Of a DNA stretch of 64,000 bases, positions 794 to 62,511 are shown piece by piece. Within the stretch, counting starts at the first letter, position 1. The number at the start of each line of letters is the position of its first letter. The DNA comes from Buxus sempervirens (taxonomy: Eukaryota; Streptophyta; Magnoliopsida; Buxales; Buxaceae). The position numbers and the translations under genes are program-made. Location of the stretch: NCBI GenBank assembly GCA_947561395.2, contig OX387188.1, forward strand, positions 8,850,150-8,914,149, read 5' to 3'. The notes under the pieces were generated by a model. That model worked only from the letters and a program-made list of their open reading frames with translations, did not search any database and was not told where the DNA came from.

Positions 794-839
794 CTATTCA
801 CTTTGAATTGCTATACTTAGTGTGATCTAGATCTATAGC

Positions 840-6001: not shown

Positions 6002-6279
6002 TGAAAGTGCGATTTTTTTTACCCCTGTTCTTTTTCACCCTCGCCTCTCGCGTCGTGTCCCGGTGCTGCTGTCGCTGTCACCTTCTTCCTTCCTGCCTAC
6101 TGTTCAGGTAAAAAATTTTTTTACTGTCTTCGTCCTGTTTCTTCATTTTCTGATTCCTAGTTCTGTAGTTTTCTCTCATTATTCTAAGCTAGGGTTTAGT
6201 AGATTTTTCCGACATTAGGGCTTTCTCGTTTTGTTGCTTGGTGCTGTCTGTTTTCTTCTTCTCTTCCATTTTTTTTACC

Positions 6280-34490: not shown

Positions 34491-35448
34491 TTTCTGCTAG
34501 GGACTAGTGGATTTAAGCCATGGCTTAAGTGTTGCTCATGTTTTTCTTTATTTTTGTGTGCTTGCTGTTTTGTTTATTTGTATAGGGCATGTTGGAAGTG
34601 TTTTAAATCTAATTTATATGAAGAGGCATTTTGAGAACATGGTATGAAGATGTGTATATGTTTAGGGATGTTTAGTACCATGCTTAGGATTTTTGCATTA
34701 TCAAATCATGCTATGTTAATTCAGATTTTGAATGCCATATTTTGATAACATGTGCAATCCAGATTTTTAAGGATGAATTCAGACTAGGATAGCATTGTCA
34801 ATTCATATTTTTAATGTGTACATGTTTTGATACCAATTTTGCATGATAAATCTGATTTATATGAAGAGGCATTTTGTGAACATGGTATGAAAATGTGTAT
34901 ATGTTTGGGGATGTTTAATATCATGTTTAAGAACTTTGCATTATCAAATCATGCTATGTTAATTCAGATTTTGAATGCTATATTTTGATAACCTGTTCAC
35001 TTTAGATTTTTAATGTCCAATGCAGATCTTTAACATGTTTAATTCAGGTTTTCATAACATGTTCAACTCAGATTGTAATGCCATGTTTTGATAATATGTT
35101 CTAGGCAAATTTTGATAACATGTTTAATTCAGATTTTTAAATGTGTGCATGTTGAGATATCATGAAACTTTGCATTTCCATGATTACATATTCAATTCAG
35201 ATTTTCCAATATCATGCTTTAATCATGAATATGATGAATATCAGATTTGGATATTTGATGGATGTTTTGAGTATTTTAGCATGTTCAAGCATGATGGGTT
35301 ATTTATTTGTATAATAGGATAGTATGTACATATGCTTGTTTAATGTTTTTGTATGGTTGTATGAGCATGCTTAGGTTAGGTTATTGCCTTGTTTATTGGT
35401 GCATATTTCCAATGTGATATTTGTATTATACCTTGGTTTGAGCTTGTA
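34491..35448 (+). other. Leader of Tat element B, first part, with 243-base duplication
   Basis: Non-coding. A tandem duplication with 243-base spacing (about 34608 and 34851) repeats an AATTTATATGAAGAGGC block. It continues at 38719 beyond a solo LTR and is collinear with the leader of C (about 49785-50300). Confidence 0.75.
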
Positions 35449-38718: not shown

Positions 38719-40160
38719 TTGTATATATGCCTGGCTGTGAAAAAGAGTGGCAAGGGGCTAGGACATTGTGAATGCACCTTTAATTTCCAATACACTTGAG
38801 CACTTTAAACCTGTTGCACAGCCTACCCATTACCAATAGGAAGTTGAACCCGAATGTGTGTAGCTTGGCGCATCGAGGTTGTTACTTCGGAAAGCAAAAG
38901 TGAAAACATTCACCTTAGAACTTTGAGCTAATGATGTGATGATATTGTGGATCTTTGATTTTGATCATCACTAGGCTTGAGATCTAAGTTGCCAATCAAC
39001 CAAAACCCAAAACCCCAACGCTTGAAAGTGGAGAAACACTTTTTCAGCTAAAATAAACAATTACGATGGGGAAATGGATTTGTAATTGAGGGAAAGCCGT
39101 TTGCATGTTTCACTAACCAAGGTATGATATGGATACCATATTGAAGGTAAACACAAGGTAAGAAGGTAATATCAATTTTATTTTTTTAGTTACCTTCATA
39201 TCATGTAAAGTAAATGCTATGGTGTCCATATGTTTGGAATGAAATGTTTCCCAACAAGATCTATATCCTAGGATTGGTGTATCCTATAGAAAGAGTTTTT
39301 TACTCTTCTCAGAAGTCATCTTACCCAAAATCCATGTAAGAGGCAACCGAAAGTACAAAGTCCATGAACATGGTGTCTAACTTTGGAGGGAGCATGTACC
39401 CTCATGAGTATTCATGCATTTGTGCAATTATAGTGTCAAAATCCCATTTTGGGACTGTGTTTAGAAGCCAAATTAAGGTGTGCATTAAGTGGGAATAAAG
39501 AAACATAATGTGTAAAATCTGGGGAATAGCTGAATCAAAAAAGGGCCATTTTGGCATTAACCGAAAACTCAGGTTGGTAAAGCTATGTTCCCCTTGTATC
39601 CGACATTTATTTTCGGCAAAAGGGTTTTATGTGTGTATCCGAACACTTATTTCGGATACAATAAATCATGCCTTTATCCGACCTGATATGTCGGATATAG
39701 TCCAGAAACTTTCAAATTGATTTTTTATCCCAACTTTCTTGAATATAAATTGCCCAAAACATTGTAAATAACCTGTGGGCACCTCAATGGGAATATGGAA
39801 AGATAATTTAAGGGTTCAAATGATCCAGCAAAGGATTCAACTTAATCTTGGAACACAAATCCATCCTTTCCTTCAAGCTTAAAGAAGATACATCAAAAGG
39901 GAATCAAGGTGGCATATTTCTTGATATCAAGTCATTTCAAACATGCTTCAATCAAACTTTTGAACTTGAAAACAAATGAAAATTTTCAAATAGGCTCAAA
40001 CTACTAACTTTGGGACATCTCTGGGGGACACTTGGAAGCCATTAAATTCCAAGCAAAAACAAAAAAAAAACAAAAACAGAAGAAAAATCAGAAATAAAGG
40101 ATTTAAAAATCAACTTGAGTTTCTTTTTCAACTCAAAAGTCTTAAAGAAGATTCAAAAAT
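38719..40160 (+). other. Leader of Tat element B, second part
   Basis: Collinear with C 50190-51250, including the GGAAGTTGAACCCGAATG block. It carries a second set of GTATCCG inverted words at 39592-39702, at the place where C carries ACGGGC words (51003-51121). No gene. Confidence 0.8.
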
Positions 40161-41102
40161 TCCATGGGCCTCTGAAAGCCTTTGAATTTTAGATTTTTTT
40201 CAAAATTTCCATGGGCCTCTGAAAGCCTTTGAATTTCAGATTTTCTTCAAATAACCCGTAGGCCTCTGAAAGCCTTTGAATTTCAGATTTTTTTTTTTTA
40301 AATCCTTCATAGGCATCTGGAAGCCTTGGAATTTCAGAAAATTAATTCATAGGACAACTGAAGGCCTTAAAAAACTTCAGATTTCATGGGCCACCAGTAG
40401 CCTTTGAATTTCAAATTTTTATAAGCCTTAGGGAAGCTTCAGCAATTCCCTAACCTCATAGGCCTTCTAAAGCCTTAATTTAAAAACTCACAGGATCTCT
40501 GAAAGCCTGAAATTTCAGAACTTTTTCTTCATAAGTCTCTAGAAGCTTGCGTGATTTTAGAACCCTCGTAGGCCCCTGAAAGCCTGTGTAATTTCAGGAG
40601 GCCTTGGAAGCCTTGATTCCAATTCATATCTTGTGGGACATGCTGGAAGTCCTAGAATATTCCAACATCTCTCTGAATGGTCTTTTTCGTACCAACCAAT
40701 TCATAAGCCTTTGGAAGCTTGAGTAATTCCAAGATACTCTGTGATTTGTCTAAAAGCTTTATTTTAGGCATTTCATATCTTGTGGGACATGTTGGAAGCC
40801 CTAAAATATTCCAACAAATTTGGATGGTCTTTTTCGTACCAGCCAATTCATAGGCCTTTAGAAACCTAAGTAATTCTAGAAACCTTTGCTTGGGTTGTCT
40901 AAAAGCCTTTGAATTTTAGACACAACCTTTTTGGGCTGTCTAAAAGCCTCTGAATTTTAAACACAGCTTTTTGGGCCGTCTATAAGCCTTTGAATTTTAG
41001 ACACATATCCTTTGGGCCGTCTAAAAGCTTCTGAATTTTAGACACAACCTTTTTGGGTCGTCTAAAAGCCTTTGAATTTTAGACACAAATCTTTGGGCCA
41101 TC
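40161..41102 (+). repeat. Hairpin array in B leader (continues 43954-44039)
   Basis: About 20 units of 35-60 bases. Each has a loop near GCCTTTGAA and two complementary arms. Early units have TCTGAAA/TTTCAGA. Others have CTGAAG/CTTCAG (40358-40380), TTAGGGAA/TTCCCTAA (40428-40453), CCTGAAA/TTTCAGG (40575-40598), TGTTGGAA/TTCCAACA (40790-40816), TGTCTAAAA/TTTTAGACA (40896-40922), and TTTGGAA/TTCCAAA (44017-44039). A unit split by the solo LTR had TCTATAA/TTATAGA (41101-41107 with 43963-43969). Confidence 0.9.
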
Positions 41103-41107
41103 TATAA

Positions 41108-43948
41108 TGTAAAGCCCCGAACTCGGGTTAGTGCAAACCGGCACCCAACCCGAATCCAGTTCGCTATTGTAACAACCCAAGTCCGGTTCAACAACCAAAC
41201 TCAAGGTGTTACCACGAAGCTGGGGTCAGATACAAACCAAGATTCACAATAATTTTAAAGTTTACAAATTAAATATAGCAGAGTTATGGTGGCCAATAAA
41301 AACAATTCTTTAATCAATATATTCAATTCAGTTTACAATAAAGTTTATCTAATCAACATGTGACATTAATACCAATTACAATTCTACCCATCAAATTAAA
41401 ACCCCATCTTCGCGATCTCTCCAAGCAACCTGAAAAATAGGGAAAAACGGAGTGAGATTTACATCTCAGCAAGTAGCAGGTGCATGCAATTAGAAACAGT
41501 CCAATGTAAGTAAATAGTCATGAGGTATTCGATTAATCCACGATAAGACGAGAAATCCAAGTTATCTATGGCAATTACAAATAAAGCGATAAAACAGATG
41601 ATCATGTATAAATACCAGTAACTTGATGTTAACGGGGTAAAACCGACAAAAACGATAAAACACGTGCCATTGCAGGACTCACAAAGATGATAAGTATTTG
41701 AGATGACACTCAACTAACTGCTATACCACCGTGCGGCTTAGGGGCAGTGCTACTCAATGATACGTCCCATGCAGCGCAGCTAGAGACATAGGACCTTCCC
41801 AGAGCAAACTAACTTGCAAGGGAAGCGCGCTTGCATATATGAGTAACTCAACCCAAACTAAATACTACTTAGCTAACCAGCCAAAACTATGGATCCATAT
41901 ACAGCTAAGCCCACTGACACAAAACACGATAAAACCACATACTGGAGGACATGCTAATGTAGGAGGCATACACACTTTTACCTATAAAGGATTACACATC
42001 TCTACACAGAGGATTACCCATCTCTGCCGTAAAAGTTAGTATCAACTCAACCACAGAAGCCGTATCACCCAACTGTAAAAGTAAAGTGAACAACATCATA
42101 CCACATACCAATTCATACCAGAATATTCAATTCCAAGTGAAAACCATGATTCAATCTTTAATAATCCAGATCAAGCCTTTTTCAAAATTTCATATGCAAT
42201 TTCCCAATTATATTCAAAGTAAAGCTCATGTATCATAAATTCGATAGAAATCAATTTTTCTCCAATTCCATAACCAATATTCATATTAAAGCTCAAAATA
42301 AAGGAAATCAAATCCTACTTAGAGTTTTCCTTATGAATCCCTTTATTAGAACCAAATTTCCTATCTTAACACCTAAAGTAGTCTTTATTTAATTTTTCTG
42401 TATTTTTATTCTCCAGCATGTCCTACAGACCTAAAATAAAGTTTAGAAGATGTTTATAAGCTATAAGTACCAGTAGTATTATTTCTAGCAATATCCATAC
42501 CCTTTGACCCTATCAAAGACAAACCTTTCATTGAAACCTTTGATTTATTGGTTAATCTTTTCAATTTAATTTTATAATTTTTATATCTTAATTAGGTCCT
42601 TATAAAGATGCTAACATGCTTAACTAATCAGAAAAATTATTGAATATTTATTCAAATTACAAAATCCCCAAAATCTGTAAATTTTACATAGAGCGTCGAC
42701 CTCTACAGGGCTAGGCGATCCTAGGCGCTCGTGCAAAATTAAACAGAAAATTTCCAGATTTACAAAGTTCGGATTTTTATGCTTTTGCCATATGTTTCTT
42801 TGGTCTAAATTAATCTAATAACATTCTAAAACATTCCTAAAGCCTTCTAGATTAATTCTTGTTAATTAAATACCATCCTATAATTAATTTCATGATTAAA
42901 CCAAGTTTCCTTCTTTATTTCAACAAATCCTTCAAGAATACCAATCAATAACATATAATCAATTTGATTCCATGTAAATACTGTTCCGACTAATCTGTTC
43001 AATCAATATTAAATCACAGAAAATGAAATCATGCAATTTCTCACGTTTTCCAAGGGTTACTACTTGCCTTATACGCTAAAATCCTTCTTTCATTGAAGCT
43101 TCTAATTCTGGACCTTATTTTTGCTCCCAAACGCACCAAGCTAGAGTTCTCTGATTCACATCTCCACCGTACACATTGTAGTTCCCTCAGTCATGAACAA
43201 AACCCCCAAAGTTGATGGCGATCCACCGTACGGATTTTCCCCGATCATATTTTGATGATGGCTGGTCAGACACCTCCATTAGCCACCTCCTTCCTTTCTC
43301 TCCCTCTTTTCTCTCAATAATAAACCCACGAAAATTCCCTCTTGTCTAACCTTAGTCTCCTATTTATATTAGGCTTTAGAAGTCCTAAACCAACCCTAAT
43401 AGACTACTTTAATTTGGGCTAACCCAACCATGGTCTAATTAAAGTCTAACCCTTTTAATTTAATTTCTACTTTTTCTCCACCTTTTATTTTTCTACTTAA
43501 ACATTAATAATTTAATCTCTTATCATCTAAACTCCTATTTACAACCTATTTTCGTGCAAAATATTTAATTAAACATTATTATCACCTAAAGCCTTATTTT
43601 CTCCAAATTAAAACTTGAAATCTCCAAATTACCCTTTTTCCTACTTTTAGGCTTTTATTAATTTCTTTTAATTTCTAAATTGTCAAAATAAATTATTTCC
43701 TTCTATTTTCAAATTCTAGTTATTATTTAATGATCTATTTATTAATTACCCTTTTCTGAAAATTACCAAAATACCCTTTTCACTCTTTTAGGATAATTTC
43801 TTTAAAATTATTTCTTTATTTTCAGCTTATGACTTATTCAAATTAATTATCCTCTAAATCTTCACTTTTTATTTTAACCAAAACTCAACTCATATTTTCT
43901 TTTATTTATTATTTATTTATTTATTAGGTGAAAATTCAGGGTTTTACA
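41108..43948 (+). mobile_element. Solo LTR inside the B hairpin array
   Basis: TGTAAAGCCCCGAAC to TCAGGGTTTTACA, 2841 bases, perfect TSD TATAA (41103-41107 and 43949-43953). It inserted into the arm of one hairpin unit. A GC-rich word (CTAGGCGATCCTAGGCGCTCG) lies at about 42710-42731. No gene. Confidence 0.93.
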
Positions 43949-44316
43949 TATAAGCCTCTGAATTATAGACACATATCCTTTGGGCCGTCTAAAAGCCCTT
44001 AAATTCTTTGGGACCTTTTGGAAGCCTTTAAATTCCAAACATTCTTTTGGATGGTCATTTATACCAACCACTTCTCTTCACAAAGTCAATTTCGACCAAA
44101 ACAAAGAAAATAACAGATATAAAAAATAAGAAAAGGAAAAACAAAAAAAATCGTAATTCAAACTCATGTTCACCCAAACATGCATACATGTTTCCATAAA
44201 TAGTGTTAGTTTGAGTTGAATTATGTTTCTTTTTCTCTTCTTTTACCAGGTTTCTCTTTGTGGCAATCATTGCTACGCACCGAAGTCCATACTTGCTAAG
44301 ATCCAAAGCTGCCAGA

Positions 44317-45760
44317 ATGAATCCGGAGAACCAATCAAGTGTATCTGCTCAAGACTTTCATCAATTTCAAGAGCAAGTGGCCGGGATGTCTAAGCTGTTG
44401 GAAACACTACTGTATAACCAAGCCCAAGCCCAAGCAACTCAAAACCAAGCTTCTTCATCCCAACAAGCACCACCGCTAGAACCTCAAATACCAATTCCAC
44501 CTTAGCCACAACCTCAACCAGAATTTTACTAACCCATTCCCGAACTTGTTTTGAACAGAGAAGAGATAGCCGAAGCTGAGAAAGAAAGAGAGAAGGAAGG
44601 GATCAGGGAGGAATTGGAAAAGAAGTTCTTGAATAAGTTGGAAACAATATAGGATGAGCTGAGGGAAATGAAGGGAGTTAATTCATTTGGAGGCACGAAT
44701 TTCGAAGATCTGTGCCTATACCCCGATGTATGTTTACCGGCCAAATTTAAATGCCCAGATTTCGATAAATATGATGGCACTAGCTGCCCAATGAGCCATT
44801 TGAAGTTATATTGTGGGGCTCTATGCCAGTTTGGTCGGAATGATGGCATACTGATCCAGCTCTTCCAGAGGAGTTTAACCGGAGCTGCTTTAAGGTGGTT
44901 TGTCACCTTGGATCATGGGAAAATAAGGTGGAAGGATTTAGCAGATTCCTTTCTAGCACAATATAGGTTCAACTCTGAGATTATACCAGATAGGTATGAC
45001 ATGATGAGGATGACAAAGAGAAATGATGAGACCATAAGGCAATATGCTAAAAGGTGGAGGGAGTTGGCTGCACAAGTCAGGCCACCCGTGGGAGAACCAG
45101 AAATGATTTCAACCTTCATCATGACATTGGGGCAACCCTTCTACAATCACCTTGTGGGTCAGACCACCACCAGTTTTGCTACCCTAGTGCAAGTGGCAGA
45201 CAGAATTGAAGATGGGGTTAAGTCTGGGAAAATAGCTGATTACTCTGCAGTATTGAACCAGGAAGCTTCCACTACTTTCTCTACATAGAAAAAGGAGAAT
45301 GGTAGTGGAAGAAGAAAGAATGAAGAAAGAAGGGAAGCAGAAGTAAACATGGTGCAACTTCCCAAGGAACCCTTTCAAATCAATGTCCATCCACCTCCTA
45401 TCAAGCCAACCCATCAAGTTCCTTTGTTGCCTATGCCTATCCAAATTAATGTCCCTTCCGCACAGCCTGTGAAGGAGGAAAACGAAGTAAGAAAAAGAAG
45501 CGAATTTTCTAAACTGTCTATGAGACCATCTGAACTTTTGCCTACCTTATTTCAGAAGGGTTATGTGACTTTGAAGTTGCCAAATCCTTATGCAAGCAAG
45601 GGGAAAAGTTATGATTCATCTGCAATCTGTGAATATCATATGAGCACTCTAGGGCATACCACTAATCGTTGCTTGGCCCTTGTGAGACATGGAGGAAAAA
45701 AAATCAATTTCATGACTTTCCTTTATCATTACATGGGCTCAATAAAAAAACAAGAAGTCG
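44317..45760 (+). pseudogene. gag of Tat element B, broken
   Basis: Aligns with gag of C from the start MNPENQSS. It shares FGGTNFEDLCLYPDV, KYDGTSCPMSHLKLYCGALC, LTGAALRWF and QYRFNSEIIPDRYD. Stops interrupt it at about 44503, 44530, 44651 and 45286, and one codon is missing at HGKIRWKD compared with HGKIRRWKD in C. The zinc-binding CEYHMSTLGHTTNRC is still visible near 45630. At about 45760 it joins inverted LTR piece J, so protease and pol are gone. A splice-acceptor-like TTCTTTTACCAG ends at 44249. Confidence 0.88.
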
Positions 45761-46960
45761 CCACCATTCTTTTTTAGGGTGTGAATGGACACCCAAAATA
45801 ATCAAATAAAAGAAATAATAAAAGAAAACAAATTAGAGTAAAAATAACTCTAATTCAAAAAAGTAAACCAGAGATGGGTAAGGAGATTAGGTTATGAACA
45901 GGGGAAGGTGTTAGGTACCCCCATTCATCTACACAAGGTGGTTGCCAAGTATTGTTCATGTTTTTAAAAAGGCTTGCTAATAGAAATCAAAACAAAAGTA
46001 GAAGAAAAATAAAAGAATGTATGGCTTTTTTCCATGTGAATGATCCAATTAATTCTGGATCATTCTTATGAAAACAAGAACCATTTCTTGGGCTTCATGA
46101 TTGACTGAAATCAAGATAAAGAAAACAAATCTGAAGTAAAAACTTCAAAATCTGGCTTTAAGTTAAATCCTTTAAATCTAAAAAAAATATTATTTTTACA
46201 AAATATTGAAAAATTGAATCTGAACAATCTAGAGCATAGATCTAGCCCATATTTCTCATTAAATAAAAAAATCTAAAACAAAATACCCACGTTGATGAAA
46301 AACATCAAAAGGGGAGAGCTTGGACCGTAGGGTCTTCTCTCAAGAATTAAAAATAACTTAGAAAACCACCTCATGAAACCCTAGAGATTACTTGAAGGCT
46401 TCTGAATCCGGATCTACCATATTGACAATGGCAGATCCAAGATCTTAGCCTAAACGACTAAAAACATCAAAAAACATAAAAAGGGTGAAAACAATGTAAA
46501 AAATCAGAATCTAGAAGGAAAAGGAGATCTAATGCTGTGAACAGCATAGATCCATGGTATTCCTCCATATTTCATCAATAATAAATTATACACCCTAAAC
46601 AAAATACTGCAATCACATATTTCTAAGATTACAACATATGGGGGTCTGCCCTACGGATCCATTCTTGTCCTCCTTTTCCCTAGAACTTTCTTCACGTTTT
46701 ACGGCTAGAGAAGATACTCTAGGTACTTGGATTAAGGTTTGGGGTTACAATCACACACAGGCCTTATACTATAGAAAGGGAGAAGATTAGAACTATCCTA
46801 GAAATTAAAACTAGAAAGTAAAGAGGTTGAGAAGCTTACCTGGACTTGAGAAAGCAAAGAGGCAGGGGTTCTCGTCTTCACTTGGAGTTCTCTTCTCAGC
46901 AATCTTAGCCACAATTCTAGCCTTCAATTCTCAATTCTAACTTCTAGCATTCAATACCTA
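45760..46960 (-). mobile_element. Inverted Tat LTR piece J
   Basis: Reverse complement of the transcribed part of a Tat LTR: the GTGGCGACTTC block at the left edge, then the GGGTGTCTAACACC-type block, the CTCTAGCCGTAAAACGTG block (about 46700) and splice donor CCAG|GTAAG (minus strand, about 46839). It runs to near the expected transcription start, then meets chromovirus coding sequence. No LTR end is intact. Confidence 0.8.
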
Positions 46961-47826
46961 TATCAGATAGGGATTCCCGTTTTACATCTCATTTTTGGCA
47001 GTGTTTCTAGGAGGCCATGGGAACTAAGTTGAGCTTTAGCAATAGTTTCCATCCACAGACTGATGGTCAGTCCGAGAGAACTATTCAGACTTTGGAGGAT
47101 ATGTTGAGGTGTTGTGTCATGGATTGGGGTGGCAGCTGGAGTGAGTATTTACACTTATCAGAATTTGCCTATAACAATAGCTATCAAGCTAGCATACAGA
47201 TGGCACCCTATGAGGAACTTTATGGCAGGATTTGTAGATCTCCAGTGTGTTAGATGGAGGTAGGTGAGAAGCAGTATTTTGGGCCCGAGATTATATAAGA
47301 CAGCATGGAGAAGGTGAAGTTGATTAGACAGCGCTTGTTGACTACGCAGAGTTGTTAGAAAAGTTATTCAGATACCCGACGGCGTGAGCTGAAATTTGAA
47401 GTGGGAGACTGAGTGTTTTTGAAGATATCACCTTCCAAAGGTATTTTTAGATTTGGGAAGAAAGGGAAGTTGTCTCCACGTTTTATTGGCCCATTTGAGA
47501 TTGTGAAAGAGATTAACCCTGTAGCTTATAAGCTAGCTTTGCCAGATCATTTGGCAGGAGTACATGATGTATTCCATATATCCATGTTACGACAGTACAT
47601 AGCGGATCCAAGCCATGTGATAGATCCCAAGCCTTTAGTGATTCGAGAGGATCTGACATACGAGGAGAGACCAGTTCAGATCTTAGATTGTCGTGAGCAA
47701 ATTCTTCGCACCAAAGTGGTTCCCTTGGTGAAAGTGCTATGGCAGAATCATACCACAGAAGAATGCACTTGGAAAGGTGAAGAAGAGATGAAGAAGAAGT
47801 ATCCGGAGTTATTCGTTTCCTCTTGA
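46961..47826 (+). pseudogene. Chromovirus D: integrase C-terminus and chromodomain
   Basis: Reads SDRDSRFTSHFW, FHPQTDGQSERTIQTLEDML, a GPF-type module (GPFEIVKEINPVAYKL) and a C-terminal chromodomain-like stretch (QILDCREQILRTKVVPLVKV). This order is typical of the Tekay/Del chromovirus group. At least five in-frame stops interrupt it, several TGG to TAG or TGA. The 5' part of the element is missing at the junction with J. Confidence 0.88.
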
Positions 47827-47854
47827 GGTAAATTTCAAGGACGAAATTTTTTTG

Positions 47855-47953
47855 TAGGGGGGGAGAATGTAAAACCCCGATATTTTCTAAGGATTTTTTA
47901 TTATTATTATTTATGTGGACGAATAAACTTAAGGAGCTGTGTGTATATGTAGG
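47855..47953 (+). mobile_element. Polypurine tract and LTR start of chromovirus D
   Basis: A purine tract (about 47855-47867) is followed by TGTAAAACCCCGATATTTT at 47868, the start of the 3' LTR. Tat element C interrupts it at 47954. This anchors the assignment of the TGTAA-CCCC solo LTRs in the window to chromovirus-type elements. Confidence 0.85.
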
Positions 47954-49764
47954 TGTAGACACCCCAAATTGCACTACAGAATGAGAAAATAATAAAAACA
48001 TGTAATTAGAGCTTAAAACAGGTCAAAAATGCATAAAAACTGACTAAGCAGACTTTGCCCGTATTTCCTTCACGGGCCCGTCGCGACCGAAAATTCTCTA
48101 CGGTCAGGCGCGCCCGTAGTAACTATACAGTCACCATTGGACCGTAGTGCATTTATGGTTACTAAAGACACGTGCGAGTTTTGTCCTTCTCTCGATTTCC
48201 GAGCTTTATCTTTAGTCCAATATATCTTTAAATGAGTGAATTACGTATTTTATTCGCTGAAGCCACCTTGGTTGGCTATGGATGGGCATTATCTTGTATT
48301 TAACTCAAACTGAAACTCTATCTTGCCAAACCCTGGACCAGCCATGCCCCTGTGCTTTCCTATAAATAAAGGTGAGATTCTCAAGCTAAGGGACACGAAA
48401 ATTTGAAGTCTAAGAAGCTCCAAGAGAAGAAGAGGAACCCCTGCTGCCTTGCTTGCTCAATCCAGGTAAGTCCCTTTTCCCTTTTTATTTTCTGTCTTCA
48501 ATTCTAGATGTAATAGGATCATCTCTATTACTGTAGAATAAGGCCATCTTTTGTACTTGTATTCCTAAACTTGCCTCTAAGTACCTCAAGAGTCTCTCTA
48601 GCCGTAAAACGTGAAGAGAGAGCTAGGGGAAAAGAGAACAGGTGGATCCCTAGAATAGGACCCCATATCTGTTTTTCTCTTTTTTTTAGAATAAAGCCTT
48701 GGATTGTGTTTGTATCACCCAAACCTATCTCCAAGTACCTCAAGAATCCTCTCTAGCCGTAAAACGTGAAGAGAGAGCTAGGGGAAAAGAGAACAGGTGG
48801 ATCCGTAGGGTAGACCCCCATGTGCTCAAATCTGTGAGATATGGCTGCTTTGAATATCCTGATCATGTTTTAATGGTTTTTATGATGAATTTGGATGAAT
48901 AACATGAATCCATGATGTTTATAGCATGAGATCCCCACTTTTTTTTATAAAATTTGGATTTTCACCACTTTTGCACCTACAGCACTTTTTCGTGATTTTT
49001 GTGGTTTTAGGCTAATATCTTGGATTTATCATAATCAATATGGTAGATCTGAATCCAGAAGCCTGAAAATAACCTCTAGGGTTTCATGATGTGGTTTGAG
49101 CCGTTTTTCATTATTGAGAGAAGACCCTACGGTCTAAATTCTCCCCTTTTGATGTTCTTCATCAACGTGGGTATTTTTGGTTTTTATTTTTTGATTTAAA
49201 GTGAAATTTAGGCTTTACCTATGTCCTGGAATATTCAAGTTCAATTTTGAAATATTTTATAAAAATCATATTTTTCTAGATTTCTAGAATTTGACTTGAA
49301 GCCAGATTTTTGGATTTTCCACTTTAAATTGATTTTAAATTGATTTTATCTCAATTTATTTTGATCATGAAACCCTAGGAATGGTATGATCATATTTGAA
49401 AGTTCTGGATCAATTAGACTATTCATATGAAAAAAACCATATATTTTTGTCTTTTTTGTGATTTTTCCTGATTTTTATAGCAAGCCTTTTATCTTTGAAA
49501 AACATGAACAATACCTGGTAACCACCTTGTGTGGATGAATAGGGGTGTCTAACACCTTCCCCTATTCATAACCTAATCCCATTACCCATCTCTGGTTGTT
49601 TTTTTTAGGAGGGTTATTTTTACCCTAAAATTGCCTTTTGTGCTTATTTAATATTTTGATGTCCATTCACACCTAAATTGAATGGTGGCGACTTTTTGTT
49701 TAATTTAATCCTGTGTGATGATAGAGGAAGTCAAAGGAATTTTGATTTTTTCCCATGTCTCACA
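47954..49764 (+). mobile_element. 5' LTR of Tat element C
   Basis: TGTAGACACCCCAAATTGC to CCATGTCTCACA, 1811 bases. ACGGGC/GCCCGT words lie at 48057-48148, a TATA box at 48361-48368, splice donor CCAG|GTAAGT at 48466. A tandem duplication with 153-base spacing (about 48534-48686 and 48687-48836) doubles the AATAA(A/G)G poly(A)-signal region and the CCGTAAAACGTG block. The left flank GTAGG would be the TSD; the right partner lies beyond the window. Confidence 0.92.
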
Positions 49765-49766
49765 AC

Positions 49767-49784
49767 TGGCGACTCTGCTGGGGA
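49767..49784 (+). other. Primer-binding site of Tat element C
   Basis: TGGCGACTCTGCTGGGGA lies two bases after the LTR. It is the Tat/Ogre-type primer site, which I recall as matching an arginine tRNA. Confidence 0.85.
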
Positions 49785-51260
49785 CTTGAGGATTTGAGCC
49801 TTTTGGTGTTTTAGTTCATGTTTTTGATTTTTTGATTTGCTTGCTATTTTATGTTCTTAAGCATGTTGGGTATGTTTTAAATTTGAATTATTGCTTAAGA
49901 ATTCATGGGGATAGAAACATGCTTAATTTTGATATATAGGATTGTTTCTACAAACATGCGTAGGGGAGGTTCGTTTTGCTGAACCATGTTAATTTCTCGC
50001 TATATTTTTATGATAGCATATTTTAATTTTCAGCATGATCTCCATGATGATTTTGGGTGTATAACATGATCATATGTTTGCATGATTAGATGATTTTTTT
50101 TATGAGCATGTTTTAGGTGCTATAGGATTGCTGTATTTACTTGTTTATTTTAAATATGCTTTCCTATTATGCCTTGGTTTGTTTATGCATGGCTGCGAAA
50201 AGAGTGGCAAGGGTTTGGGACGTTGTGAATGCACCCAATTTTTACAAAGCACTGTGCACATTTATTTTTTTTACACAGCCTTCCCTTAACCTATAGGAAG
50301 TTGAACCCGAATGTGTGTAGCTTGGCGCAACGAGGTCGATACTTTAGAAAGCGAAAGTGAAAACATTCACCTTAGAACTTTGAGCTAATGATGTGATGAT
50401 AATGTGGATCTGGGATTCTGGTCATCACTAGGCTTGAGTGCTAAGTTGCCATTAAGCCAAAACCCAAAACCCCTAAGCTTGAAGGTGGAGTTACACGTTT
50501 TTGGCTAAAGTATACAATTACGTGGGGATATGGGTTTGTATGATTGTGGGAAGGCCGTGTGCATGGCTTACAAACCAGGGCATAATGTGGATGCCATATT
50601 GAAGGTAAACAAGGTAACAAGGTAATCCTATTGCTTTGCATTATTATCATGTCATAGGGGTGTCATGGTGCCCATTGGTTCGGAATAAAATTGGTCCCAA
50701 AATATGCATGTTTTTAAAATTGGTGCAGCCCATAGGAAGAGTTTCTAACTCTGTTTAGAATCAATCCTACCCTATGTTCATACAAGAGGCAACAAAAGGG
50801 TACCAAATTCTTGAGTATAGTGTCAATTTGAAGGGTACATGTGCCTTCCTAAACATGTGTTTTAGCAAAAAGGCCAAGGTCCACTTTGGGACAGTTTAGA
50901 AGCCTTGCACTGGGTGAACCGTATGTTTGGATGAGCAATCAAAGTGATCAAACCATGTAAAAACTGGAAAAATATAACAGAGTTCTATAAAACCGCATTT
51001 AGTACACGGGCTGGGCTCGCCTGTATTGGTTATACGGGCTGAGCTTGCCCGTGTTGGTCATACGGACACAGCTTGCTCGTAATATGAACACGGGCAACGC
51101 CAGACCGTGGTAAATATACGGTTTTCTCGGAGGATTCAACTTTAATCAGTTTTTCTTACTAAAATCTTCCTTTAACCCTTAAATAATAATAAAGGGAAAC
51201 AAGTTTGAATAAAATGCTTCAGAAAAAAAATAATTGAAAAAAAATGTGAGAGAAAGGTTC
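49785..51260 (+). other. Leader of Tat element C
   Basis: Non-coding, collinear with the leader of B. Contains inverted ACGGGC/GCCCGT words at 51003-51121. No supported ORF. Confidence 0.8.
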
Positions 51261-52283
51261 CTTGGGCTTCTGAAAGCCTTTGAATTTCAGACTTTTTTAA
51301 AACTCCTGGGCCTCTGAAAGCCTTTGAATTTCAGATTTTTCAAAAATCCTTGGGCCTCTGAAAGCCTTTGAATTTCAGACTTTTTCTCAAAAACTCATTG
51401 GGCCTCTGAAAGCCTTTGAATTTCAGACTTTTTATCAAAAAAAAAAAACTCTTTGGGCCTCTGAAAGCCTTTGAATTTCAGACCTTTTTCTTTTGGGCCT
51501 CTGAAAGCCTTTGAATTTCAGATCTTCTGGGCTTCTGAAAGCCTTTGAATTTCAGACCTTTTTCTTTTGGGCCTCTGAAAGCCTTTGAATTTCATATCTT
51601 TTGGGCCTCTGAAAGCCTTTGAATTTCAGACATTTTTCTTTTAGGCCTCTGAAAGCCTTTGAATTTCAGATCTTTGGGCCTCTGAAAGCCTTTGAATTTC
51701 AGATCTTCTGGGCCTCTGAAAGCCTTTGAATTTCAGACCTTTTTCTTTTGGGCCTCTGAAAGCCTTTGAATTTCAGATCTTTTGGGCCTCTGAAAGCCTT
51801 TGAATTTCAGACCTTTTTCTTTTAGGCCTCTGAAAGCCTTTGAATTTCAGATCTTTGGGCCTCTGAAAGCTTTTGAATTTCAGACCTCTTTCTTTTTGGG
51901 CCTCTGAAAGCCTTTGAATTTCAGATCTTTTGGGCTTCTGAAAGCCTTTGAATTTCAGACCTTTTTCTTTTGGGCCTCTGAAATTTCAAGACTTTTTTCT
52001 CAAAAACTCTTTGGGCCTCTGAAAGCCTTTGAATTTCAAGACTTTTTTCTCAAGAACTCTTTGGGCCTCTGAAAGCCTTTGAATTTCAGACTTTCATCAA
52101 AAATCCTCGGCCCTCTGAAAGCCTTTGAATTTCAGACCTTTTCTCAAAATATCCCTGGGCCTCTGAAAGCCTTTGAATTTCAGACCTTTTCCAAAAATAT
52201 CCCTGGGCCTCTGAAAGCCTTTGAATTTCAGATCTTTCTCTCTTTTTTGTGGGACCTGTTGGAAGCCCTAGAATATTCCAACA
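51261..52283 (+). repeat. Hairpin array in C leader
   Basis: About 24 tandem units of 33-45 bases with core GGGCCTCTGAAAGCC then TTTGAATTTCAGA. Arms TCTGAAA/TTTCAGA pair perfectly around loop GCCTTTGAA. A higher-order pattern alternates CAGATC and CAGACCTTTTTCTTTT spacers. One unit near 51980 is shortened. The last unit has different arms TGTTGGAA/TTCCAACA (52257-52283), the same pair seen in B. The array ends about 190 bases before gag. Confidence 0.93.
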
Positions 52284-52476
52284 ATTCAATTCAAAAAAAA
52301 AAAAAAAGAAGCAAATAAAGAAAAAATCCAAACTCGTGTTCACCCAGCTTGCACATAGGCATTCCTAGGCATGTGAATGAGATTAATTGGGCACTGATAT
52401 TTTTTCCTTTATTTTGTGGCCAGGTACTAATACACTTGGAATCATAGCTCCTGTAACTAGATCAAGAGCTCGCGCC

Positions 52477-53439: not shown

Positions 53440-53469
53440 CAAGACCCCAATGGGAAGAAAGGAAGCGGG

Positions 53470-56127
53470 ATGAAGAAGAACGGGAACAAGAAAGAAGGGG
53501 AGGTAAACATGGTACAGCCACCATCAGGCCTTAACAAGCCCATACAAATCAATATAACTGCTCATTTTCCTACCCAATCTCCACCTACCCAGGCCCCTAT
53601 GAGGGTTAATGTTCCAGCAGCACCTTCAGACCAAAAAAGGGTTTTTACTAAAGAGGAAAAGGACGCTTATTTTGCAGCAAGGAGAAATAGGGTTTTCACC
53701 CCTATTCCAATGACTCCTTCTCAGTTGCTGCCCACCTTATTGCAAGCAAGGTATATCACCTTAAGAGAACCCAATCCGAATGCACCCAAGGGGAGAAATT
53801 TTGACCCCTCCACCACTTGTGATTACCACATGGGTGCACCTGGGCACCCTACTGACAAGTGCTGGCCTTGGAAACATGCCATTCAGGATTTACTGGACCA
53901 GAATACCCTGTCTTTCAATACAGGGGCTCCCAATCCTCCTAGAACAGATATTGGACAGAACCCTCTGCCCCAGCATCATGGGGCAGGCCCATATAATGTT
54001 ATAGGTGTAGTATCTTCTGATAAAATAACCTTTGACCCATCCCAGTTAATTGCTCCAATAGGGACAACGGTCAAGGTTTATTTTAACAGAATAAGCAAGG
54101 AAAAGGAAATAAATGTAATTTCAAAGGGGAATGATAGTGCTGCAAAGAACATTAGCTCATCTCTGGACCGGTTCTCGGCCCTCATGGCCCAAATGAACAT
54201 TGCAAAACCACCATTGGTCATCAATTGCAGTCCATCCACCTTTACTTCACCCATTCAGTCAAAACCACCATTGGTCATAAACTGTGACCCTCTTAGTGCA
54301 TCCGTCACTACTGCAACCCCCCAACCAAAACAACTTCCACCATTGGTTGTTAATGTCCCCCTTGCTCAGACTTCCACAGTTAAGTCTAAACTTCCTCCCT
54401 TGGTGATAAATGTCCCCAAGCCTTCTTACTCTGAATCGGCTGTACCATGGAACTACAGTGAAGCTTTTACCACTACATGCCCTGCAGCTGAAAGCAAGGA
54501 AGAAGTGAACCTCATGATGAGGTCAGGAAAATGTGTAGGGGTGGAAGAAAAACAAAAGGAAACAGAGAAGGAAAAGGAAGAAGAAAAAAATAAAGGAAAG
54601 GCTAAGATAGGGGATGATGCCCCTCAGGTAACTAACAGTGAGGCTGCTGACCTCATGAAGATAATAAAAAAGAGTGAGTTCAATGTTGTCGAACAGTTGA
54701 ACAAGGTCCCTGCCCAGATCTCAATACTGGGCCTATTGTTAAATTTTGAAAAACATAGGGACTCCTTGTTAAGGATACTCCAGGGGGCCCATGTGCCTAA
54801 AAACATTGAACCAGACCAACTAGGCCGGATGGTTGGGCAAATATTATCCCACAATGTCATAACTTTTTCTGAGACTGAAATCAGCCCAGCAGGGTACCAT
54901 CATGTTGACCCATTGCACATAGCTGTACTCAGTAAGGGTTGCATGATAGCCCGGGTCTTGATTGATAATGGGTCGGCTCTCAACGTCTGCCCGTTAGTAA
55001 CCTTTGTTAAGCTCGGTCTGGAGCAAAACAAAATCAAACAGAACGGAAGAATCATAAGAGCATTTGATAGCTCTAAAACACACTCCCTAGGGGAGGTTGA
55101 ACTGCCGGTCACAATTGGACCATATATTTTCAACATCACATTTGAAGTGATGGATATACCTGCAGCCTTCAACCTACTCCTAGGAAGGCTGTGGATTCAT
55201 ACGGCTAGGGCTATACCATCTACCCTCCACCAAAGAGTCAAATATATCAGAGGGCAAAAGGTGATTACTGTCCTAGCCGAAAATTTGGTTCCCCCCATGT
55301 GGTCCCCTGATGTACCCTGTATAAACATGGAAATGACTGCCGATAAGATGGCATTTCACTCTTTCCAATTTGAAACTGTTAATTTCATACCTGTGGGGTA
55401 TCAGGAAAAAGAAGGAAAATTGACCTGTGCTGAGAAAATGGTCAAGAATGTGCTGGAAAAGTACAACTTTCACCCTGGAAAAGGTCTGGGGGTTAACCTG
55501 CAAGGAAGGATAGAACTGATAAAGGTTAGGAAGATGGTTCATAGAGTAGGATTGGGGTCCAAGCCAAGGAAATGGAGAAGTCAGAAGGAAAGAGAAGACA
55601 TAAAATTCCAGCACATCAGGGAAACTTTTCCTAAGCTTTCTCACATGATTCAGCTGTCTCCTCCTGAGGATCAGTCCAAACCCCCATACTATAACATAAA
55701 CCCATTCCAGAAACCCAAGTCCCCAACCGTGCAACCATATGTTCCACCTCCACCTCCACAAGCATTAGGTGGGCCTGGGCTACATACAGAACAGGAGCAG
55801 GACTTTTCTGAGGATGTGGGAGCCTTCTTTGCCATGACAGAAGGCAACAAAGAAGAAGGAGCAGAGGAGCTACCTTTTATTGATTGGGCTGCAGTAGAAG
55901 TTCCATCTGGAACTAGCCCTACAAAAGAAGCAGGCGATGCAACTCACCCAGTATTGGTGATCTCAGATGCAGACCCTGAGCTTGAGGAGCAGGCTTGTAT
56001 CCCTGCCCCAGATTCTTTTATTTTGAACAATTGGGAGGAAACTCCTCTTACTTTTGAAGCCGCGTTTGTTTGGCAAACAGACATGGCTTCCAAAAAAAAC
56101 TCCATTAGTGGAATGCCCTTTCCCTGA
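53470..56127 (+). CDS. gag C-terminus and aspartic protease of Tat element C
   Basis: Same frame as the upstream gag. It holds a zinc-binding CDYHMGAPGHPTDKC (about residue 117), three PPLVIN-type repeats (about 240-320), a charged coiled segment (about 355-385), aspartic protease with DNGSA (about 499) and LLGR (about 570), and a G-patch-like HPGKGLG (about 668). The frame stops at 56127 just after a run of eight A. Pol lies in the +1 frame and overlaps by 74 bases. Either a one-base A-run error, a true +1 shift or removal of an intron would join them; Ogre-type relatives are known to carry an intron between protease and RT. Confidence 0.88.
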   Translation: MKKNGNKKEGEVNMVQPPSGLNKPIQINITAHFPTQSPPTQAPMRVNVPAAPSDQKRVFTKEEKDAYFAARRNRVFTPIPMTPSQLLPTLLQARYITLREPNPNAPKGRNFDPSTTCDYHMGAPGHPTDKCWPWKHAIQDLLDQNTLSFNTGAPNPPRTDIGQNPLPQHHGAGPYNVIGVVSSDKITFDPSQLIAPIGTTVKVYFNRISKEKEINVISKGNDSAAKNISSSLDRFSALMAQMNIAKPPLVINCSPSTFTSPIQSKPPLVINCDPLSASVTTATPQPKQLPPLVVNVPLAQTSTVKSKLPPLVINVPKPSYSESAVPWNYSEAFTTTCPAAESKEEVNLMMRSGKCVGVEEKQKETEKEKEEEKNKGKAKIGDDAPQVTNSEAADLMKIIKKSEFNVVEQLNKVPAQISILGLLLNFEKHRDSLLRILQGAHVPKNIEPDQLGRMVGQILSHNVITFSETEISPAGYHHVDPLHIAVLSKGCMIARVLIDNGSALNVCPLVTFVKLGLEQNKIKQNGRIIRAFDSSKTHSLGEVELPVTIGPYIFNITFEVMDIPAAFNLLLGRLWIHTARAIPSTLHQRVKYIRGQKVITVLAENLVPPMWSPDVPCINMEMTADKMAFHSFQFETVNFIPVGYQEKEGKLTCAEKMVKNVLEKYNFHPGKGLGVNLQGRIELIKVRKMVHRVGLGSKPRKWRSQKEREDIKFQHIRETFPKLSHMIQLSPPEDQSKPPYYNINPFQKPKSPTVQPYVPPPPPQALGGPGLHTEQEQDFSEDVGAFFAMTEGNKEEGAEELPFIDWAAVEVPSGTSPTKEAGDATHPVLVISDADPELEEQACIPAPDSFILNNWEETPLTFEAAFVWQTDMASKKNSISGMPFP

Positions 56128-56461: not shown

Positions 56462-56506
56462 ATAGTAAAGATTGGGGTATGTCTATCTGAGGTACAGCGA
56501 GATGAA

Positions 56507-59500
56507 ATGATATGGTTCTTAGCCGACTATGAAGATGTATTTGCATGGTCGTATCGGGATATGCCAGGGTTAGACACAGACATGGTTGTGCATAGGCTAC
56601 CTATTCTACCAGATGTTAAGCCAGTTAAACAGAAACTGAGAAGGTTAAAACCTGAATGGACATTGAAAGTCAAAGATGAAGTGGTTAAACAATTCCAAGC
56701 CAGATTCTTAGCAGTCTCCACATACCCTGAATGGCTTGCAAATATATTACCAGTGCCAAAGAAGGATGGAAAGGTCAGAATGTGCATAGATTACAGAGAC
56801 TTGAATAAGGCAAGTCCAAAGGATGATTTTCCACTTCCACATATTGACATCTTGGTGGACAACACGGCTGTACATAGCTTATTCTCATTCATGGACGGCT
56901 TCTCGGGGTACAATCAGATTAAGATGGCGAAGGATGATCAAGAAAAAACAGCCTTCATTACACCTTGGGGTACCTTCCACTACACTGTCATGCCATTTGG
57001 ACTTAAGAATGCAGGGGCAACCTACCAGCGGGCCATGACAGCATTATTCCATGATATTATCCATAGGGAGATGGAGGTTTATGTGGACGATATGATAGCC
57101 AAATCATGTGAAGAAGAAGACCACTTGATCAATTTGAAGAAGGTGTTTGACCGGCTCAGGAAATACAGTCTAAGGCTTAACCCTGCAAAATGTGTCTTTG
57201 GGGCTACATCAGGAAAGTTATTGGGCTTTATAGTAAGCAGGAAGGGAATTGAGATTGACCCAGCCAAAGCTAAAGCAATCATTGAAATGCCATCACCTAG
57301 AACAGAGAAGGAAGTTCATGGTTTTCTTGGAAGGATTCAATACATAAGCCGGTTCATAGCACAGCTCACTGCTATCTGTGAACCAATTTTCAAGCTTCTA
57401 AGAAAGAATAACCCGACAGTTTGGAATGATGATTGCCAAGAAGCCTTTGACACAATAAAGGAGTATTTATTGAATCCACCTGTGCTAGTGCCACCAACTC
57501 CAGGAAGACCATTAATTCTATACTTGTCAGTTTTGGAGACATCAATGGGGTGTGTCTTGGGACAGCATGACGATACAGGCAGAAAGGAAAGGGCGATTTA
57601 CTACCTAAGCAAGAAATTTACAGAATATGAAGCAAAGTATTCCCCTTTGGAAAATACTTGTTGTGCATTAGTGTGGGCAACTCAGAGGCTGAGGCACTAT
57701 TTCCTTAGTCATTCCACCTTATTGATATCCCGAATGGACCCTTTGAAGTATCTATTTGAGAAACCGGCTTTAACTGGTAGAACAGCAAAGTGGCAGTTGT
57801 TACTCTCTGAATTTGACCTCACCTATATCACGCAGAAAGCCATTAAAGGTCAAGCCATAGCTGATCACTTAGCTGCACACCCTTTACCAGAATACCAACC
57901 CTTGAAGACCAACTTCCCTGATGAGGCAATCCTATTTGCTGAAGAAGAAGAAGGTGAAAGCTCTTGGCAAATGTTCTTTGATGGGGCCGCCAATATGAAT
58001 GGAAATGGAATAGGGGCTGTGTTGATCAAGCCAGATGGGGCACATATCCCGATCGCAGTGAAGTTAAGGTTCCAATGCACAAACAATATAGCAGAGTATG
58101 AAGCATGCATAATTGGGTTGCAAGCTGCCTTAGACCATGAAGTAGAGGAACTTGACGTATATGGGGATTCGAGTCTTATCATCTTCCAAACAACTGGTGA
58201 ATGGAAAACCAAGGATCACAAATTGATCCCCTATCACCAGTATTTGGAAGAAATAAGCACCAAATTTACTCGAATTTCCTTCAATTATATGCCAAGGGCC
58301 AAAAATCAGTTTGCGGATGCTCTAGCAACATTGGCTTCAATGGTCAGTATGCCAGAAGGTGTTGATATTAGACCACTGGAAATTGAAGTCAGAGATGAAC
58401 CAGCTTATTGCCTTGTTCTAGAAGAAACCCCAGAAGAAGAAGTACCATGGTTTCAAGACATTAAGAACTTCCTAAATGATCGGAGTTTGCCAGAAAATGT
58501 CACCTCTACAGAGAAAAGAACAATACAGAGGTTGGCAGGACAGTTCTTATTAAGTGGTGGTCAGTTGTACAAAAGATCACACAATGATATACTGCTTAGA
58601 TGTGTTGCAAAGACCGAGTCAGAAAGGTTAGTTGAAACGGTACATGGAGGAGTGTGTGGACCCCATATGAATAGACACATGCTTGCCAAGAAGATTCTGC
58701 GATTGGGATATTACTGGTCAACAATGGAGCACGATTTCTATATACATGTCAAAAGGTGTCATTTATGCCAAGTGTATGTCGATAATAAAAATGCACCCCC
58801 AAGTGAATTACACAACATGACATCTCCATGGCCCTTCTCCATGTGGGGTATAGACATCATTGGAATGATCTCTCCAAAGGCATCAAATGGACACAGGTTT
58901 ATACTTGTAGCAATTGATTACTTCACCAAGTGGGTAGAGGCAGCTTCATATGCAAACATTACAAGTAGCCACGTTTTGAAATTCTTGAAGCACAATATCA
59001 TTTGTCGCTACGGTTTGCCAAGTGCCATAGTATCAGACAATGCTTCAAACCTTAAGAACAAGGACATGAGAAGGATGTGTGAACAGTTTCAAATTACCCA
59101 CCACATGTCAGCTCCGTATAGACCAAAGATGAATGGGGCAGTGGAAGCAGCAAATAAGAATATAAAGAAGATCATTCAGAAGATGGTAGTGAGTTTTAAA
59201 GATTGGCATGAAATGTTGCCACTTGCTCTACATGCTTTCAGAACCTCGATTCGAACTTCTACAGGGGCAACCCCGTACTCTTTAGTATATGGAATGGAAG
59301 GAGTTTTACCAGTGGAAGTGGAAATACCTTCACTAAGAGTGCTAATGGAAGCTGAATTAGAAGAAGCTGAATGGATACAATCAAAACATGATCAACTCAA
59401 TCTAATAGAGGAAAAGCGATTAAAGGCGCTTTGTCATGGCCAATTGTATCAGAAGAGAATGGCCAGGGCTTACAATAAGAAAGTGAAGCCCAGAACTTTC

Positions 59501-59695
59501 CAAGAAGGAAATTTAGTATTGAAGAAAATTTTACCCTTTTTGGAAGATCCTCGTGGAAAGTTTAAACCAAATTGGGAAGGGCCTTATGTGGTCAAGAAGG
59601 TCCTATTAGGGGGTGCTCTCATCTTAACAGAAATGGATGGGAAGGATTTTCCTGAGCCAATTAACTCTGATGCAGTAAAGAGATATTTTCCATGA
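56507..59695 (+). CDS. Tat pol: RT, RNase H, second (archaeal-type) RNase H, integrase
   Basis: 1062 intact codons. Coding similarity starts slightly before the first ATG (SEVQRDEMIWFLADYEDVFA). RT has RMCIDYRDLN, MPFGLKNAGATYQ and YVDD (about 192). The first RNase H follows (about 330-450). A second RNase H of archaeal type begins near 485 (FFDGAANMNG, Asp about 492; EYEA; DALATLAS), the hallmark of Tat elements. Integrase has an HHCC region (about 710-755) and DD35E core with Asp 783, Asp 844 and Glu 880, exactly 35 residues apart, then a C-terminal domain. All visible catalytic residues are present, so this part looks functional even though the upstream frame is broken. Confidence 0.95.
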   Translation: MIWFLADYEDVFAWSYRDMPGLDTDMVVHRLPILPDVKPVKQKLRRLKPEWTLKVKDEVVKQFQARFLAVSTYPEWLANILPVPKKDGKVRMCIDYRDLNKASPKDDFPLPHIDILVDNTAVHSLFSFMDGFSGYNQIKMAKDDQEKTAFITPWGTFHYTVMPFGLKNAGATYQRAMTALFHDIIHREMEVYVDDMIAKSCEEEDHLINLKKVFDRLRKYSLRLNPAKCVFGATSGKLLGFIVSRKGIEIDPAKAKAIIEMPSPRTEKEVHGFLGRIQYISRFIAQLTAICEPIFKLLRKNNPTVWNDDCQEAFDTIKEYLLNPPVLVPPTPGRPLILYLSVLETSMGCVLGQHDDTGRKERAIYYLSKKFTEYEAKYSPLENTCCALVWATQRLRHYFLSHSTLLISRMDPLKYLFEKPALTGRTAKWQLLLSEFDLTYITQKAIKGQAIADHLAAHPLPEYQPLKTNFPDEAILFAEEEEGESSWQMFFDGAANMNGNGIGAVLIKPDGAHIPIAVKLRFQCTNNIAEYEACIIGLQAALDHEVEELDVYGDSSLIIFQTTGEWKTKDHKLIPYHQYLEEISTKFTRISFNYMPRAKNQFADALATLASMVSMPEGVDIRPLEIEVRDEPAYCLVLEETPEEEVPWFQDIKNFLNDRSLPENVTSTEKRTIQRLAGQFLLSGGQLYKRSHNDILLRCVAKTESERLVETVHGGVCGPHMNRHMLAKKILRLGYYWSTMEHDFYIHVKRCHLCQVYVDNKNAPPSELHNMTSPWPFSMWGIDIIGMISPKASNGHRFILVAIDYFTKWVEAASYANITSSHVLKFLKHNIICRYGLPSAIVSDNASNLKNKDMRRMCEQFQITHHMSAPYRPKMNGAVEAANKNIKKIIQKMVVSFKDWHEMLPLALHAFRTSIRTSTGATPYSLVYGMEGVLPVEVEIPSLRVLMEAELEEAEWIQSKHDQLNLIEEKRLKALCHGQLYQKRMARAYNKKVKPRTFQEGNLVLKKILPFLEDPRGKFKPNWEGPYVVKKVLLGGALILTEMDGKDFPEPINSDAVKRYFP

Positions 59696-62423: not shown

Positions 62424-62511
62424 GGAAGCGCCAAAGAAGCCAAGGAAAGCGAGAAAAGACGTGCTCAGGGAGTTTTCCAACTAGTAAAAGTGTCACAATG
62501 ACGTTCCCCAT

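Follow-up and report, generated by a model that had tools for sequence, protein, structure and literature searches.

To our knowledge, little is known about how plant long terminal repeat (LTR) retrotransposons decide whether their RNA is translated or packaged. Tandem repeats as such are already on record for Tat/Ogre elements, notably in the 3′ untranslated region (UTR) (PMC7004042), and PMC6317226 describes tandem-repeat arrays in large noncoding regions of Ogre-type elements; covarying hairpins or pseudoknots in the leader go unmentioned in the parts of that paper drawn on here. A pseudoknot in the Ty1 leader is described as one of the major sites to which a Gag fragment binds, and its disruption impairs retrotransposition; the work reported there could not show that it takes part in packaging (PMC4974528). 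The upstream pseudoknot domain of tobamoviruses is described as a series of consecutive pseudoknots that interact with eEF1A (PMC4683447). Here, we focused on a 64,000-nucleotide stretch of the Buxus sempervirens genome (assembly GCA_947561395.2, contig OX387188.1, positions 8,850,150 to 8,914,149 of the forward strand; referred to as the window), in which the leaders of two retrotransposons, B and C, carry tandem arrays of a small hairpin unit. By its domain content, C is best called an Ogre-type (Tat clade) Ty3/gypsy LTR retrotransposon.

The array differs from each of these precedents. In contrast to the hypervariable 3′-UTR tandem repeats of Tat/Ogre elements, it has ∼43 nucleotides (nt) per unit and is structured, with arms that covary, and its place 5′ of gag distinguishes it from the Tat 3′-UTR repeat. 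Ty1 has one long-range pseudoknot in its leader, whereas many small local units are found here, with pseudoknots as candidates only, and the tobamovirus domain comprises three units in a viral 3′ UTR, compared with roughly 14 to 40 units in a retrotransposon 5′ leader. Among the papers listed by literature searches, none described covarying hairpins or pseudoknots arrayed in the leader of a plant retrotransposon, subscription journals lying mostly outside the coverage. We read the array, with moderate confidence, as a tandem series of selected, cis-acting RNA folds on the genomic RNA, which would most likely serve multivalent Gag binding or packaging, a function suggested by its position.

A first-pass annotation of the window, made from the sequence alone, had proposed hairpin arrays in the leaders of B and C, and both arrays are real. 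A scan for stems of at least 7 bp around loops of 6 to 13 nt beginning with RYY, with 100 dinucleotide shuffles per region, returned 15 stems in B (40161-41102; shuffle mean, 1.99; maximum, 6) and 21 stems in C (51261-52283; shuffle mean, 3.66; maximum, 8), while the background elsewhere in the window was 1.83 stems per kb (maximum, 6; 58 kilobase bins). The same scan gave no stem at 43954-44039, a piece cut by the scan edges, where another scan yields one unit (44017-44039). Each unit consists of a 6- to 9-bp stem, referred to here as helix 2, around a loop of 6 to 11 nt, and there is one unit per ∼43 nt. The loop, which had been described as constant, keeps only its start (GCC or GCT, rarely ACC). 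Seven of the eight fully paired arm sets listed at the time exist as uninterrupted units; the exception, TCTATAA/TTATAGA, pairs completely only where an insertion has split the unit, and its contiguous look-alike near 40981 has a mismatch. The diversity of arms that had been claimed for both leaders holds for B, whereas C is almost a single arm set: 21 of its 23 listed stems are TCTGAAA/TTTCAGA, one is TGTTGGAA/TTCCAACA, and one is a degenerate 6-bp stem.

We consider the leader array a regular feature of the sampled families, with a varying number of units, because it is present in all 30 leaders that were chosen by gag similarity alone. For this sample, the genome was searched with the gag of B and the gag of C, and loci were hand-picked without viewing their leaders, 20 from 150 scored places (of 8937 first-look candidates) and 10 from 150 (of 8818). 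Each of the 20 leaders contains 16 to 40 stems (16 to 39 under slightly altered scan settings) with a median spacing of 43 nt (436 of the 555 spacings fall in the range of 38 to 50 nt), and the 10 leaders of the second sample contain 14 to 24 stems within 1251 bases, a few chance stems being included in both counts. No stop codons were present in the matched gag stretch of the 30 sampled loci. The array is upstream of gag in all 30 of them, and in C it lies between the primer-binding site and gag. When the 10 leaders selected with the C gag were read as reverse complements under the same filter, 7 to 12 stems were counted, versus 14 to 24 in the sense direction; since a palindrome is also present on the opposite strand, the number of stems is a poor guide to the strand.

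The first-pass annotation had further argued from joint changes of the two arms that the fold matters, and this holds across deep divergence. The unit set came from 91 loci (40 B, 21 C, 20 gag-selected, and 10 divergent loci), and the only selection criteria were the motif in the flank, the start of the loop, and the two innermost pairs; stem pairs 3 to 8 and the pairing of a candidate second helix (helix 1; see below) were ignored. Covariation was tested for 496 column pairs on a tree derived from the units, against 200 null alignments in which the inferred substitutions were placed anew at randomly drawn columns. Among 674 distinct units, stem pair 3 (E = 1.2e-4, the lowest value that the test can return) and stem pair 4 (E = 0.011) exceed this phylogeny-aware null, and they are the only pairs outside the selection to do so in the full set. 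The remaining pairs have E values of 0.28 (pair 5), 0.17 (pair 6), 0.056 (pair 7), and 1.3 (pair 8), while pairs 1 and 2 (E = 0.029 and 0.29) were used in the selection and hence are no independent evidence. No nonstructural column pair goes beyond the tree null (best E = 1.1). Seven of the eight stem pairs rank within the top 12 of the 496 column pairs, with the eighth at rank 40; in the set of 163 units present in at least two loci they fall within the top 25, and pairs 3, 4, and 6 have E values under 0.05.

The same change of partners can be followed around a shared loop. Loop gctttta (variant actttta) carries the stems TGTCTAAAA/TTTTAGGCA, TATCTAAAA/TTTTGGATA, TGTCTAAGG/CCTTAGGCA, and TGTCTACAG/CTGTAGGCA, and loop gcctctgaa carries TCTAAAA/TTTTAGA, TCTATAA/TTATAGA, TTTGAAA/TTTCAAA, and TCTGAAA/TTTCAGA. 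In loop-anchored shuffles, the 9-nt-loop class, which is dominated by one arm set, has 422 Watson-Crick cells versus 376.9 ± 10.1 (maximum, 407; 1000 shuffles); for arm sets present in at least two loci, the value is 176 versus 159.6 ± 5.2, with a maximum of 180, so that some shuffles reach higher. We infer that stem pairing is kept by selection on the genomic RNA, and the joint change of the arms suggests that the folds may serve the life cycle of the element.

Independent mutation of the arms, which had been named as a sign against the fold, is seen in recent history only, i.e., in young copies, and not over deep divergence. We counted changes relative to 35 known unit types, a scheme that misses any paired change by which one known type turns into another. 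The C and gag-selected loci (1116 units) contain 170 single-sided changes, one double change (to G·U), and no Watson-Crick doubles, with 1.0 doubles expected; independent arm mutation is what neutral decay after insertion predicts for young copies. Double changes number 22 (15 of them Watson-Crick) versus 7.4 expected by independence in the 40 B loci, and 26 (22 Watson-Crick) versus 1.67 in the 10 divergent loci, all stemming from a limited number of distinct events multiplied by duplication or descent. This indicates that paired change accrues over long times, which favors sustained selection rather than regular copying of one arm onto the other by reverse transcriptase. The argument is of moderate strength and falls short of proof, since occasional copying events, once multiplied by duplication, would resemble selection.

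Treating the loop as a plain loop, as the first-pass annotation did, is incomplete, since the beginning of the loop may belong to a second helix as one of its strands. The initial loop bases of many units complement the bases immediately before the left arm. RRGC or RRGT is found just ahead of the left arm in 618 of 916 distinct units (frequency at random positions, 0.148), and 551 of these 618 have four of four helix-1 pairs, G·U counted. The flank:loop pairs seen are AGGC:GCCT, GGGC:GCCT, AAGC:GCTT, GGGT:ACC, and AGGT:ACCT, with GGG:CCC in the terminal unit. The raw association, uncorrected for relatedness, gives Fisher values of 6e-57 for pair 3 (A-T/G-C) and 3e-8 for pair 1 (T-A/C-G), and when loops were swapped among 346 units, at least four helix-1 pairs were present in 203 real units versus a mean of 160.5 and a maximum of 176 over 300 shuffles. 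Pair 4 is G·T in 267 of 674 units, with 70 G·T versus 3 A·C among the 163 shared units. In the C unit, helix 2 alone has an energy of -5.8 kcal/mol and helix 1 alone -4.3 kcal/mol. The helices interleave, helix 1 being separated from helix 2 by 1 to 3 nt, and the 3′-side loop has about 3 to 7 nt; such a gap and a short 3′-side loop fit the geometry of an H-type pseudoknot. We propose that many units could be H-type pseudoknots. An origin of helix 1 as a by-product of a GGCC palindrome plus an internal direct repeat (GCCTCTGAA/GCCTTTGAA) was also considered; it could account for the commonest class of units and fails for AAGC:GCTT and GGGT:ACC. The single base between the two helices is the most variable site of the unit (71 changes in 527 C-family units, the next site having 28), as expected for an unpaired linker.

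In the reading that we prefer, that of selected cis-acting folds, the leader of these Ogre-type elements bears roughly 14 to 40 tandem copies of one RNA structural unit, whose stem pairing would be maintained by selection acting on the genomic RNA. The initial 3 to 4 loop bases of many units would pair with the bases just 5′ of the left arm and give a compact H-type pseudoknot. As a repeated cis-acting signal between the primer-binding site and gag, the array would supply many alike binding sites for a partner that, judging from the position and from Ty1 only, is most likely Gag or another RNA-binding protein, and the bound RNA could be assembled into particles and/or kept from translation. 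The fuller proposal, in which some 14 to 40 H-type pseudoknots under compensatory evolution form a multivalent Gag platform that sorts RNA to particles over translation, is more speculative, and we put it forward only tentatively.

Several results weigh against the preferred reading, for the stem as well as for helix 1. An R-scape-like test on 30 orthologous B leaders found none of 65 stem pairs significant (lowest E = 0.12), the shared variation being too small, and the unit tree, with 32 columns behind it, is weak. On the + strand, the C array is little more stable than dinucleotide shuffles (minimum folding energy z = -1.3), whereas B has z = -4.9. Helix 2 has no clear excess of G·U over A·C among recent or shared variants, which leaves the RNA strand unmarked: the ratios are 42/42 in 527 C units, 233/207 in all 2040 units, and 48/46 in a further set; 132/118 for private variants, 17/21 for those in two loci, and 17/13 for shared ones; and 136/127, 39/35, 22/26, and 45/41 in other sets. 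Because most variants look like neutral decay, we regard this comparison as neutral on RNA-level selection. As for helix 1, after tree correction pair 3 is at rank 9 of 496 (E = 0.21 and 0.23) and no other helix-1 pair is significant, pair 1 having stayed outside the tree test since loops had to start with G. None of 36 helix-1 pairs is significant in the 30 orthologous B leaders, the flank motif is missing from 298 of 916 stems (some of which arise by chance), and no helix 1 is evident in the gatt-TGTCTAAAA-gctttta class.

The main rival explanation, which we regard as possible if doubtful, is that the folds act chiefly on translation, with a structured leader blocking scanning, recruiting ribosomes, or favoring shunting. 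It is consistent with the position of the C array, which ends 194 nt ahead of the first in-frame ATG (52477, taken as the gag start), and with the tandem pseudoknots in the 3′ UTR of tobacco mosaic virus, which are described as acting in replication and translation (PMC4683447). The present data separate neither translation from packaging nor packaging from translation.

Template switching during reverse transcription, already raised in the first-pass annotation, would copy one arm onto the other and thus produce a paired change in one step, with no selection. Several paired changes are indeed perfect and multibase, and the A-T to T-A flip between TCTAAAA/TTTTAGA (191 units) and TCTATAA/TTATAGA (87 units) is accompanied by a single example of one possible intermediate and no example of the alternative one, a pattern that duplication also explains. 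However, the young copies, which are themselves products of reverse transcription, have no Watson-Crick doubles next to the 170 single changes reported above, which speaks against routine arm-copying, although rare events could look like selection. Wobbles also stay uncorrected, such as the T·G in TGTCTA/TAGGCA, which persists across several inner-arm changes, and the G·T at helix-1 pair 4. We consider this explanation unlikely.

Also quite unlikely, in our view, is duplication history alone, i.e., a few ancestral hairpins copied in tandem whose pairing was never selected. The near homogeneity of the C arrays (311 of 527 units identical over 28 nt), the neutral decay of the arms after insertion, and the lack of any significant pair among the orthologous B copies all agree with it. 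However, units with a common loop and flank differ in both arms but remain paired, and covariation in the 674 distinct units is above a null that preserves the inferred tree, so that it exceeds duplication history in this set and fails to do so in the 30 orthologous B leaders. Finally, it is very unlikely that the palindromes matter as DNA (in cruciforms, recombination, or replication) or on an antisense transcript and not on the sense RNA: the stem is without a clear excess of G·U over A·C and the antisense strand matches the sense strand in folding (z = -5.3 in B and -2.5 in C), but G·T far outnumbers A·C at helix-1 pair 4, possibly as one inherited state.

All units described in the following are on the + strand. 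The 5′ part of the B leader array (40161-41107) contains 17 listed stems of 6 to 9 bp that span 40171-41084 and have diverse arm sets, and a unit of the same style is located just before it (40031-40053). A 2841-bp insertion (41108-43948) with TG...CA ends and TATAA on either side, probably a solo LTR or a short LTR element, interrupts a TCTATAA/TTATAGA unit, and the 3′ part of the array beyond it (43949-44039) contains the unit at 44017-44039, with arms TTTGGAA/TTCCAAA. Within the 5′ part, the unit TTAGGGAA-loop-TTCCCTAA (40428-40453) is preceded by AAGC, which complements GCTT at the loop start as a candidate helix 1. Another unit of the AAGC...GCTT class (40710-40733) has the arms TTTGGAA/TTCCAAG, and the same loop is found with CTTGGAA/TTCCAAG in 27 of 61 loci. 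The TGTCTAAAA/TTTTAGGCA unit is located at 40747-40770, and related leaders have a near-identical loop with the three other arm sets given above. In the TGTTGGAA/TTCCAACA unit with loop gccctaaaata (40790-40816), GGG upstream complements CCC within the loop. The C leader array (51261-52283) consists of 21 TCTGAAA/TTTCAGA units followed by the terminal unit GGGACC-TGTTGGAA-gccctagaata-TTCCAACA (52257-52283), which is closest to gag. Of the 21 C loci, 19 contain the exact terminal-type unit (TGTTGGAA/TTCCAACA) at any place in the locus, as do 15 of the 20 gag-selected loci, 24 of the 40 B loci, and 4 of the 10 divergent loci. Some units of the window copies are broken (e.g., near 40641, 40938, 40981, and 51574). 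A search of 40000-52400 with Rfam found nothing over the gathering score, only three subthreshold matches to SCARNA6 (about 16 bits versus 68). Each common unit also has a direct repeat within it, GCCTCTGAA or GCTTCTGAA followed by GCCTTTGAA (e.g., 51263-51291), which hints at the origin of the unit. A separate repeated palindromic element is located ahead of the array in the C leader (near 51006-51081), and a possibly related one in a further locus, L075 (around position 41), reads CTTGCTCGTA/TACGGGCAGG.

Element C is alike to described Ogre-type elements in having a second RNase H-type domain, an antisense open reading frame (ORF) with a plant mobile domain, a length of ∼21 kb, and LTRs of 1.8 kb (PMC6317226). 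Its 5′ LTR (47951-49764, + strand) is 97.0% identical across 1836 aligned positions to the 3′ LTR, which lies downstream, beyond the window end. A putative primer-binding site, TGGCGACTCTGCTGGGGA (49767-49784, + strand), read from the sequence, follows directly after the 5′ LTR; Ogre-type elements use a tRNA-Arg primer. The array occupies the final 1.2 kb of the leader ahead of gag, which was identified by a domain match (PF03732; 52477-53439, + strand). Reverse transcriptase, RNase H, the second RNase H-type domain (PF13456), and integrase follow in this order (56462-59692, + strand), as in Ogre and Retand, and an ORF on the - strand (60645-62480) matches the plant mobile domain (PF10536). 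Ogre and Retand are described as marked by an extra RNase H that follows RNase H and precedes integrase, and a plant mobile domain is reported for 57% of Ogre elements (PMC6317226). In C, the extra RNase H-type domain sits between RNase H and integrase, and the extra ORF encodes a plant mobile domain; these two features are the reason for calling it Ogre-type. Between C gag and the reverse transcriptase there is an 895-amino-acid open frame (53440-56124), whose sole domain match is a subthreshold G-patch.

Elsewhere in the window, two LTR-like stretches in opposite orientation (33305-34493 and 45699-46895) are 82.7% identical to each other and each ∼75% similar to the C LTR, and they may represent nested Tat relatives around B. 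Direct repeats at 1-779 and 8265-9043, 99.5% identical, flank a Copia polyprotein ORF (831-5105) and a Transposase_32 ORF (6193-7596); together they are probably a very young Copia element with an extra ORF.

Young, high-copy families such as these supply many natural variants of one RNA unit, which makes structure selection, unit number, and packaging directly testable. If our reading is true, leader tandem repeats, which are easily mistaken for by-products of strand transfer, can hold selected structure.

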